DNA from: Nereocystis luetkeana
Taxonomy: Eukaryota; Sar; Phaeophyceae; Laminariales; Laminariaceae
NCBI GenBank assembly: GCA_031213475.1
Contig: JARUPZ010000018.1
Coordinates: 10,749,894-10,813,893 of the forward strand
DNA length: 64,000 bases
Direction: 5' to 3'
Below are positions 3,386 through 63,653 of the stretch, one piece after another; position 1 is the stretch's first letter; the number at the start of each line of letters is the position of its first letter. The position numbers and the translations under genes are program-made. The notes beneath the pieces were generated by a model. That model saw nothing but the letters and a program-made list of their open reading frames with translations. It was not told where the DNA came from and did no database searches.

Positions 3386-4637
3386 GGCGGGGGGGGAGGG
3401 GGGGGGGTGAAATCGATATCATGGGGGTCAGCCACACGATCAAATGAGTGATGGGATGGTTACTATTGATCCCCTCCCCCACGAAGGTCCCGCGATTTCT
3501 GAGGAACCTGACAACGCATGAATTATTTTTTAGAGAGGCCGAGGCCTTTGCGTCAGATGAAATACTCGTAGGTGCTCAGTAACTTGCAGGTGGCCTTCGT
3601 TGTGCATATCTGAACAGGCAGTGCACCACATTTGTGTCTGTGGAAGCTTGTATGGCGTCACTTGGTGCTGCATGTTTAGCGTATGATTCCGGACTTCCAG
3701 GGGCGAGGGGGGCGGTGGGGAATTGTTGGTCATGGACTTCTCGTTATCTGTGCGCCCTGGCTCCAATGTAAACTCTATTAAAAGAGAGGAGCAGTGGCCT
3801 TATTTTTCGACGCGTCAATACCTCTTTTGGCCCTTTTATATACCGACCGATACCTGTAGTACCACTTCTAAGTGTCCTCTATACACCTTACAGCAGCACG
3901 AGTGGTTCAATAGGTGCACGTCCTTGGCGGGATTTCTATGCTCACATGCGATATGTCGTATTTGTATCTGTTGACATGACTCGTACACATATTTTCGGCC
4001 CAAGGGCCCAAGGTGCTCGGCAATGATGAACAACGAGATCGTTTCAAAAACGAGAGACCGGTATTTTGCGGAGCGCCTAGAGTGTAACATGACAAGGCCT
4101 CTTGCAGTTCTATTATGAAGTACCAGGTAGTATTGAGAGGTGGTCAGTCAAGGGGCCAAATTTTGATCGAGAGTTGAAGCCGGTTTCAGGATGTTCAGGA
4201 TATCATCAGATACGACGTGTATTAATAGGAGGAGGAGGAAGCGGGGAGCTTCCCGATCATGTCCGTCTTTATTCAGGAAACTGGGTTGGTGGCCCGCCTT
4301 CAGCTAGCCGGTTGGCAGCCCCTAGAAGCGATCAATACGACCCAAAGGTCTCGCGTACCCTCTGGATGTTACCTCGGGATTAGATGGCGTCAAACGACTG
4401 ACGACCTAATGATCCTCGCACCTCCCCATGTCACACAAGACTCGCAACTCGCAACTCGCAACGGCGAAAAAGAAAAACGAAACGTCTAGAGTACGTACCG
4501 GTTGATATCGACAGTAGACCCTGCCTAGAAAACGCCTTAATCAAAAATGGTGTGGAGACCCTGACAGTCCAGGAGTTGCACTCAACACCCCACCTCCCAC
4601 CTCCACCTCCCCGGCTATAGCCCCCTGTCGTCTGGCC

Positions 4638-61200: not shown

Positions 61201-63653
61201 CCGCATCTCAACCCTTGCTCAGTAGTTCCTATCGCGTTATGTTTGTCCGCACGTATCGCACGTTTGTGCTCTAATCAAGGCCACCCTGAAGGAGCGCCAC
61301 GCACCGTGTGTTCCGTGGGTTATTTTTGATGGGAAGAATGCACACCTTCAACAGATGATCGATTGCCACAGTTAATATAAATATTTCACGGCAGATAAAC
61401 CCCTGATCTGTGCGATCTATATGATCTAGCTCGTGCTGCCGGGTGGGAGCCGTATAATCTGCATGATCTAGGACATGACTCCCGGGTTGCAGCTGTATGA
61501 TTTGCATGATATATATTGGACAGGTTTCTTGGGTTGGAGCTGTACCGTACAGATTCTGCCCAACATCTCGTAACGGCAGTGTAGGATGATCTAGATGATC
61601 TATCTGTAGATGTTCTGTACAGTACAGATCATGCACCACATATCATAACGGCAGGTTAGGATATAGACGATATATCTGTAGATGATCTATCTGTACATGA
61701 TATATCTGTAGATGAGCTATCTTTAGATGATCTGTCTGCAGAGCATCTATCCGACGTGTGGGTCACTATGAGACCATTACACGGCACCTATGGCATCTAT
61801 GGCGCCTATGGCTCCCCAACAACTTGAAAACTTGCGCTTTTTCATTCCAGAGGCTGCCCAATACCGTCGGGGCAGCAATTCTCCAGCTTTAAATATGCCG
61901 CGACAACCCCGCCCCCTCCTGTCCGCAAACGAGTACGCCCCCCCCCCCCCCCCCCCCTCCATCCCTCGCTCCCTCCGCTCCGCTTCTTCCGCTTCTTCCG
62001 CTTCTTCCGCTTGTGCCGTGGTATTTGTTGTATTTGTTGTATTTGTTGTAAGATACAAGGCAGGAGATGTCGATGGCCAAGAGTGGGGTGCGCCGTGTTT
62101 CTTTTTCGCCCCGCCGGCCTCCCTCTACTCTTCTTTCATCGCTCCCGGTTCTCCTCCCCGTCCGGACTCCCAATCCCTCGACCGACTCGGTAGCACGGCC
62201 AATCCGACTGCGCCCGTCGCGGCCTCCTCCTCTACCAGGCCTTCTGCCACTACCGCTGCTGCTGCCGCCACCGCTGCTGCTTCCAGCGGCAGTGGCACCA
62301 ATGATGAGGGAGAAGTAAAAAAGTCAAGACACAATTTTGAACCCGCTAGTGGCGATGGCGAGGGCGGTGGCCTTAACACTATCCCCAGCAGTGGCGAGGA
62401 GCCCGAAGTCGGGGGTGGGAAGGCGACGGCGACGGCAGCTGTCTCGGAGGCGTGGGGCCCGGAGGCGGTGAAAGTGGCGATATTCGGAGACATGGGAACT
62501 GCGGAAGTTGACGGCACGCTGGATGCAGGACACACCAACGAGCCGCCGTCTATCCGCACGGTGGGCATCCTCAAGGACCAGCTCGGGGCAGGGGCGCAGC
62601 CAGTCGTCGGAGGGGGGGGAGGTGAGGCTGGGCAGGCGGAAACCGCGGCGCCAGAGCCGCAGCTGGGGTTGGTTCTGCACATCGGGGACTTGAGCTATGC
62701 GAGGGGATACGATGCCCAGTGGGACGAGGTGAGAGCTAACCCTAAGGCGTTAACCCTAAGGCGTTTTTTCATTTATATACCCAGTGTATGTATATATTTG
62801 TGTTCATGGCCGATTGTTTTGGGTCGTGCGACGCCTTTCGTTCGGGATTATGCTCTAACGGTATAACCGGTATGACCTTCAGCAAGCTGCTCGAGAGTGC
62901 TGTAAGCGACGTCTGCTCTATATTGGTATATCACTATACTTAGGGTTAGGATAAACACGGGGCGACATGGTGGTCAGAACCAAATATGATTCGTAAAAAT
63001 ACTGGAATACCTGGTATATATTTTTTGTGGATACAATGGGTCCTAACCCTAACCCTGATTTCTATGATACAATAGAAATAGCAGAGGTGCAGCACTAACC
63101 CATCACTATTACGTACGGGTGCAGTTCGCGCGAGGTCGGATCGGAGTTCGTTCTTATTCAATTTACCCACTCTGATGTCCTAACCCTAACCCTAATGTCT
63201 CAGTACTAACCCAAAGCGACGGTCATGAGTTCCATGTTGATGGTGACTTTGGCACGTCCCTCCCCCTCTGACACCCCTTCAATCCTTGAGAAGCCAACGG
63301 CGCGCTTAGGAGATTTACTGCCCAGCTATTTGCCCTTGCCGTCATATAGCCCTGTCTGTGCCTAACGTGCATCTGCTTATGCTAGTAATTATACTATTAA
63401 TAGTAAGAGAGCTAACCGACACGATACGATCACACGATATCTAATCCCAGTGTCAATTCATTGTCGCCTCGTTACCCCACGTACAGTACATGGAGCAAAT
63501 TCAACCAGTGGCATCCAGGGTCCCTTGGATGGTAGGGGTGGGCAACCACGAGCGAGACTTCCCCACCGCGTCGAAGTCCAGGACCCGGGCAGAGCTGTCG
63601 TACTTCACGGGGACTGACTCCGGAGGAGATTGCGGCGTGCCCACGGCCTTCAG
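58279..63653 (+). CDS. Purple acid phosphatase, PAP24/27-like, 5' part
   Basis: This is a metallophosphoesterase that hydrolyses phosphate esters with a dinuclear metal centre, secreted or at the cell surface. Exons: 58279-58920, 59299-59451, 60348-60484, 62053-62728, 63487-63653; all junction phases fit. The gene runs past the window after about 590 residues. Residues ~1-42 have a basic start and a hydrophobic stretch (LALILTVIAVTL), a signal peptide or anchor. Residues ~45-310 match the N-terminal all-beta part of plant PAP24/27 (APIKYQFIT, FGLFKGGVQNP, MRLSWVTG, YGREDMCGSPATT, HSAVLTGLIPGKPY). The catalytic domain begins VAIFGDMG (~456), then GDLSYARGY (~522) and VGNHERD (~555), giving metal ligands from three of the five family motifs; the last two lie beyond the window. 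A Ser/Ala/Pro- and Gly-rich insert of about 100 residues separates the halves. Confidence 0.88.
58931..59180. repeat. Imperfect ~12-15-bp repeat in phosphatase intron 1
   Basis: Words of the type ACCGTTGATACA recur about fifteen times between exons 1 and 2. A similar GTGGTTGATATC series occurs at 11565-11645 in a helicase intron. Confidence 0.7.
60188..60235 (+). repeat. (CTG)16 microsatellite in phosphatase intron 2
   Basis: Sixteen uninterrupted CTG triplets, in sense with the transcript, lie about 110 bp before the acceptor of exon 60348. They are followed by a diverged CTCTGCT series that forms part of the pyrimidine-rich tract. Confidence 0.92.
61355..61755. repeat. Dispersed element, family C, copy 3
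   Basis: This is the longest copy, with GATCTATATGATCTAGCTCG, GTGGGAGCCGTATAATCTGC and CATGATCTAGGACATGAC. It ends in a run of ATATCTGTAGATGATCT words at 61665-61755. It lies in the phosphatase intron 60485-62052. Confidence 0.7.
62956..63072. mobile_element. Family A inverted-repeat element, degenerate copy
   Basis: ACGGGGCGACATGGTGGTCA with GAACCAAATATGATTCGTAA and a right half ATACAATGGGTCCTAAC parallel copy 3. CCCTAA units have replaced or invaded its right arm. It lies in the phosphatase intron 62729-63486. Confidence 0.5.

Follow-up and report, generated by a model that had tools for sequence, protein, structure and literature searches.

The DNA analysed here is a 64-kb window from Nereocystis luetkeana, to which all counts refer, and its most conspicuous feature is a 9-bp interrupted palindrome, TACCWGGTA (W is A or T), present in 47 exact copies (both strands; 28 TACCAGGTA and 19 TACCTGGTA on the plus strand). 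Two related protein kinase genes with introns are located at 27227–30649 and 39015–41473 (minus strand). Pfam matches in the window comprise CDC50, AAA helicase, kinase and a purple acid phosphatase domain, runs of TTAGGG are present, and the window holds no Rfam match and no tRNA. The introns, the Pfam matches and the TTAGGG runs are those of a eukaryote.

The number of TACCWGGTA copies far exceeds the expectation of 0.92 from a third-order Markov model of both strands. In 50 dinucleotide-preserving shuffles, the mean was 0.58 and the maximum 3, so the density is not reproduced in shuffled sequence. Among 9-mers with at least eight occurrences, the motif ranks second by log-likelihood, behind poly-C. 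An earlier account made from the letters of the window, referred to here as the sequence-only reading, had described the 9-mer as hugely over-represented, and these counts bear it out; each of the 14 coordinates that it named is no more than 2 bases away from an actual site. Its estimate of about fifty copies, which included 8-of-9 matches, agrees with the exact copies alone, whereas exact and one-mismatch copies together number 87. The one-mismatch copies are only about twofold in excess (40 versus 17.35 expected), and their mismatches are distributed across all motif positions. Neither TACCAGGTA nor TACCTGGTA appeared as a complete word in the literature searched, and searches of that literature for scars as an overrepresented palindrome and for CCWGG footprints yielded nothing of the TACCWGGTA form.

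The excess is all-or-none and needs TA on both sides. The pentamer CCWGG occurs 158 times versus 115.9 expected, and after subtraction of the 47 TA-flanked copies it falls to expectation (111 versus 115.0); copies with TA on one side only are likewise near expectation (23 versus 19.0). Among the 32 pairing words of the form TA-ab-N-b'a'-TA, TACCWGGTA is 51-fold enriched, and the runner-up is 12.6-fold enriched with two occurrences observed. The central base is W in 47 copies and C or G in five, and words corresponding to trimmed or filled products are scarce: TACCGGTA occurs five times versus 1.5 expected, TACCATGGTA once versus 0.16 and TACCTA 25 times versus 26.8.

The 47 sites, whose coordinates are given without strand, fall into 42 clusters: 37 singles and five doublets spaced by 7 bp, with no cluster of three or more units. 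Five doublets compare with 0.57 TA-sharing pairs expected by chance (Poisson p = 0.0003), and their unit orders are mixed (AA, AT, TA, TT and TT), as independent events would give. The doublets are located at 25701–25716 (TACCAGGTACCAGGTA), 39901–39916 (TACCAGGTACCTGGTA, in a kinase intron), 49027–49042 (TACCTGGTACCAGGTA, with a TA in common with TACTCGTA at 49021), 52133–52148 and 54412–54427 (both TACCTGGTACCTGGTA); the first four had been named as doublets by the sequence-only reading, the fourth at 52132. Single exact matches of TACCAGGTA are found at 2605–2613 (footprint-like), 2892–2900, 4121–4129, 6366–6374, 32643–32651, 32939–32947, 35304–35312, 38957–38965, 42093–42101, 45020–45028, 45576–45584, 46770–46778, 47554–47562, 48429–48437 (with a TA in common with TACTGTA at 48424), 49635–49643, 52260–52268, 53459–53467, 57423–57431, 57977–57985 and 58126–58134. 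Those of TACCTGGTA are found at 6258–6266, 16960–16968, 27009–27017, 34254–34262, 48955–48963, 54142–54150, 55460–55468 and 57595–57603.

Placement in introns, which had been proposed along with placement in intergenic DNA, is supported for four clusters (five sites) of a protein kinase gene. These are the doublet at 39901 and exact single matches at 39387–39395 (TACCAGGTA), 39441–39449 (TACCTGGTA) and 41094–41102 (TACCAGGTA), and they stand between adjacent kinase exons on the minus strand that match Pkinase positions 81–126, 125–162 and 158–221, the middle match scoring 29.9 bits, slightly below the family cut-off of 31.7. A further exact TACCAGGTA at 27422–27430 lies between kinase exon matches. 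None of the 42 clusters falls within the 6.8 kb of eight open reading frame (ORF) stretches picked as coding, in agreement with the proposed absence from exons, but 1.9 would be expected there by the share of TA dinucleotides (P(0) = 0.14), and exon avoidance is not significant after allowing for TA content.

The motif as an insertion at TA

Copies of the motif within repeats permit comparison with empty sites. MITE1 is an inverted-repeat element of about 118 bp present in six copies, and the copies at 1733–1847 (plus strand), 15068–15176 (plus strand) and 30734–30844 (minus strand) lack the motif and serve as empty-site references. In the copy at 44772–44889, CCTGGTA (read on its minus strand) is an exact 7-bp insertion at TA, which gives the TACCAGGTA site at 44858–44866. 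With the motif excised, the flanks of this site match the empty copy at 15068–15131 over 64 bases with 90.6% identity and no gap. The copies at 29301–29419 and 62975–63047 have one 7-bp insertion in common, at another TA within ATATATAG; the two resulting TACCTGGTA sites, at 29364–29372 and 63008–63016, represent the same event.

Two further cases are weaker. The TACCTGGTA at 16120–16128 lies in a copy related to an adjacent 42-bp repeat and, minus CCTGGTA, matches this repeat over GTGCCTACGTAGGCA (E = 0.010, joined flanks), although a MAFFT alignment opened no gap. The TACCTGGTA at 36321–36329 was compared with a related repeat at 35880–35953 (minus strand; 69% identity, E = 6.9e-5), and the gap is not cleanly placed. 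Insertion was thus judged at five sites that represent four events, two of them clean (44858 and 29364/63008) and two weaker (16120 and 36321); the remaining clusters have no usable related copy within the window. Matches at E = 0.01 or better at 25701 (possible empty copy at 46267–46302, E = 0.010) and 45576 (A-rich) were left uncounted, as were weaker ones. Related copies without the motif are shorter by CCWGGTA at TA, which corresponds to a net insertion relative to the empty site. In these comparisons, TACCWGGTA behaves as an insertion at TA in which the TA is duplicated. The excess of one-mismatch copies corresponds to a divergence of about 5%, if all copies are of the same age, and decay over all positions fits neutral scars.

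The ends of MITE1 read TTACGGGGGACC, and several copies are bordered by CTATTA...TAATAG; a 20-base MITE1 pattern had no match in IMG/VR. The 42-bp repeat is arranged in tandem at 15873–16061, and its unit contains the palindrome GTGCCTACGTAGGCAC. A second inverted-repeat family is represented at 49226–49330, with relatives at 37726, 44555, 46082 and 50405. The copy at 49226 has TTAA at both borders, as piggyBac-type elements do.

Target flanks and related TA-bounded words

The TA dinucleotides that carry TACCWGGTA are found in a preferred context. After removal of CCWGGTA, the flanks around the 42 clusters agree with AYA-TA-TRT at 2.71 of six positions versus 2.05 for local TAs (p = 0.0004; 20,000 permutation draws, with TAs within 1.5 kb as background); the AYATATRT consensus was taken from publications, and the flank table had been inspected before this test was chosen. 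Of the 64 symmetric flanks, ACA ranks first and ATA second. In addition, T before TA and A after TA are avoided, with 80 of 84 flank positions free of them against a background of 0.799 (p = 6e-5). Without the seven bases, the sites resemble the AYATATRT target of the Tc1 type. In the excerpts of the literature cited in this work, ATATATAT is given as the target preference of the ZB transposon, which is said to resemble those of Sleeping Beauty and Bari (PMC7913693).

The window also holds a word that is already known as a footprint. The consensus footprint of Sleeping Beauty is printed as TACAGTA/TACTGTA, that is TACWGTA (PMC4378557); a review prints TAG(T/A)CTA instead (PMC2874221), which conflicts with the former, and the former is followed here. 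On our reading of the printed Sleeping Beauty scars, CAG lies over CAG with its two outer bases paired, and the A:A mismatch between them is resolved to CAG or CTG. TACWGTA occurs 40 times in the window versus 13.0 expected, of which about 35 are independent because six sit in one array at 56954–57091, a 23-bp tandem repeat with TACTGTA six times. Two repeat copies carry it as 5 bp inserted at TA: as TACAGTA (CAG plus TA) at 29317–29323 in the MITE1 copy at 29301, and as TACTGTA (CTG plus TA) at 46113–46119 in a copy of the repeat MITE2. TACCWGGTA is similar to this footprint in having TA on both sides, a short self-annealing insert, an A/T center and a net insertion at TA, but retains five bases where Sleeping Beauty retains three, and neither an element, in the scans given below, nor a transposase, among 50 of 113 ORFs, was found for it in the window.

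A third class, TACGAGTA/TACTCGTA, with CGAG as the inserted bases, occurs 18 times versus 3.3 expected. These words would fit a self-annealing 4-nt overhang with two mismatches and would be Minos-like, with CGAG as the end of Minos. They differ from TACCWGGTA in having four bases instead of five.

Several other words and arrays were recorded. TACCATA (44 versus 12.2 expected) was set aside, as it stems largely from a pentamer microsatellite: imperfect TACCA/GGTAT arrays at 8828–8883 and 31276–31393 inflate its counts. TATTAATA occurs 34 times versus 2.4 expected (for example at 6445, 44668, 52184 and 63871) and CTATTAATA 36 times versus 0.96; these could be another TA-X-TA scar or the MITE1 target site. 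A perfect 11-bp tandem repeat, TACTGAGAGTA, is present in five copies at 18274–18329.

Origin of the TACCWGGTA sites

We propose, with a probability of roughly 0.7, that the TACCWGGTA sites are the excision footprints of a cut-and-paste transposon that targets TA. Such an element would enter a TA and duplicate it, and on excision its terminal bases would stay behind as 3' overhangs. These would then anneal as CCWGG over CCWGG, held by four G:C pairs that enclose a W:W mismatch, before the break is sealed. Mismatch repair to CCAGG or CCTGG would convert TA into TA-CCWGG-TA and so lengthen the site by a net 7 bp. Doublets would result where an element later entered one TA of an older scar and was again excised. 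We infer from the scars that the five retained bases derive from the transposon ends, and likewise how long the overhangs are, that they anneal and to which superfamily the element belongs (Tc1/mariner or a different TA-targeting group). The W center (47 copies versus five with C or G) and the few trimmed or filled products are in keeping with self-annealing of CCWGG. Alternatively, a 3-nt overhang, CCA or CCT, could anneal through a one-base overlap and give the same product, so that the stagger may be five or three nucleotides. The suggestion that a micro-palindrome spreads by copying into TA-rich sites comes close, in that the motif is inserted at TA and the TA is duplicated; rather than copying itself, however, the motif would be what a larger element left behind on departing.

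Tc1/mariner transposases nick inside the element to give 3' overhangs of terminal bases, and end joining leaves a footprint (PMC7827188); for mPing, annealing of the overhangs guides repair (PMC4561436). As with the plant mariner elements Stowaway and Osmar, the window has TA-flanked remnants of what would be element ends, and for Stowaway it has been inferred that an element re-entered a TA next to an old footprint (PMC1925063). The Stowaway remnants retain up to four bases of one end and one or two of the other (PMC1925063) and vary from event to event, whereas one sequence dominates here. The TACCWGGTA scar works like a Tc1/mariner footprint; it is not classed as one.

Several observations weigh against this origin. 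The clean insertion events number only two. Published footprints retain 2–4, 0–4 and 1–4 bases in the passages cited, fewer than the five here, although Stowaway remnants can hold four plus two; a 5-nt stagger would exceed the 1–4 nt published there. Footprints in rice are described as mixed and varied in the part of the source cited (PMC4423477), whereas the TACCWGGTA scars are uniform. Scans of TA-bounded inverted repeats up to 1.6 kb, of the longest 25 of 38 inverted repeats, up to 3 kb, and of the half-sites (14 and 9) revealed no element in the window that ends in CCWGG; longer elements would escape these scans. No transposase, including none of the DD34D/E type, was found among 50 of the 113 ORFs of at least 110 amino acids in the window. 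A count of 42 scars against no parent is also lopsided for a 64-kb stretch. Among the other classes, CGAG-type sites lack the flank match to AYATATRT (1.78 versus 2.03, p = 0.84), and that of TACWGTA is weak (p = 0.07). The excess of doublets holds only for pairs of TACCWGGTA itself, as its stacking with these two scar types is near chance (1 versus 0.48 and 1 versus 0.22). Finally, 34 of the 42 clusters lie between 25.7 and 58.2 kb, a block with 55% of the TAs whose limits were set after the data were inspected (p = 0.0005), and this concentration is unexplained. MITE1 was dismissed as the parent because its ends read CGGGG; the scar predicted for MITE1 itself, TTACSGTAA, is present once.

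The strongest competitor dispenses with the transposon: a separate enzyme or repair process would add the 7-bp CCWGGTA at TA, with no larger element ever involved. Such micro-insertion would account for the missing parent within the window, the uniform inserted unit and the excess of 7-bp doublets (5 versus 0.57). We know of no process of this kind, however, and the same families of repeats also carry the published footprint TACWGTA, there as an insertion of 5 bp. The Tc1-like target flanks, moreover, are directly explained by a transposon, and micro-insertion is considered unlikely.

A binding site for a dimeric protein, kept under selection, had also been suggested and would suit a palindrome found so often in introns and between genes. 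All-or-none dependence on TA does not suit such a site, as CCWGG copies that are unflanked or half-flanked stay at expectation. There is no graded excess of weaker or half sites, the mismatches of one-mismatch copies spread over all positions, and copies originate as exact 7-bp insertions in repeats; selection for binding is thus a very improbable origin.

An identical 7-bp unit is known from bacteria, in which a triple-unit pattern matched 40 loci (L010–L049) of several phyla; there TACCWGG is repeated head to tail three to five times. If the sites in the window were heptamer repeats, (TACCWGG)n, of this kind, growing and shrinking by slippage, the five doublets would be short arrays. However, 37 of the 42 clusters are single and none reaches the three units that are the minimum in the bacterial arrays. 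In addition, A and T units are mixed in two of the five doublets, whereas 35 of the 40 bacterial arrays are uniform, and slippage leaves single insertions at TA unexplained. In 29 of the 40 bacterial loci, no copy lies outside the array. A doublet pattern gave nine IMG/VR matches, in records with 2 to 9 copies of the 9-mer (doublet included) in 4.7–130 kb, unlike the window. Slippage is accordingly given still less credence than a binding site. The least credible proposal, a methylation or restriction target, draws on the CCWGG core and founders on the same TA dependence, since CCWGG outside TA..TA is at expectation (111 versus 115.0). Neither a binding-site nor a methylation role is needed to explain TACCWGGTA.

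A more far-reaching form of the excision-footprint proposal is that TA-bounded elements have been removed in bulk from the form of the genome that was sequenced, through an excision system that is programmed or highly efficient and makes a staggered cut of 5 nt. Bulk removal would explain both the 42 uniform scars and the lack of any element in 64 kb, and we regard it as a long shot. If it were true, the scar and not the element would be the commonest trace of the excision system.

What the proposed scars would record

Excision footprints are already known as a kind; the density, the uniformity and the CCWGG sequence of these scars are new. If the footprint origin is correct, a k-mer of regulatory appearance would be a fossil record of transposition, and the motif would become a countable tally of past jumps. 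A scar as stereotyped as CCWGG would suggest that the transposase cuts with a longer stagger than is published in the excerpts cited, or that the ends anneal with unusual accuracy. Counts of TA-X-TA words would then show how breaks with known overhangs are repaired, and would reveal transposon families that were formerly active, after the elements themselves have vanished.

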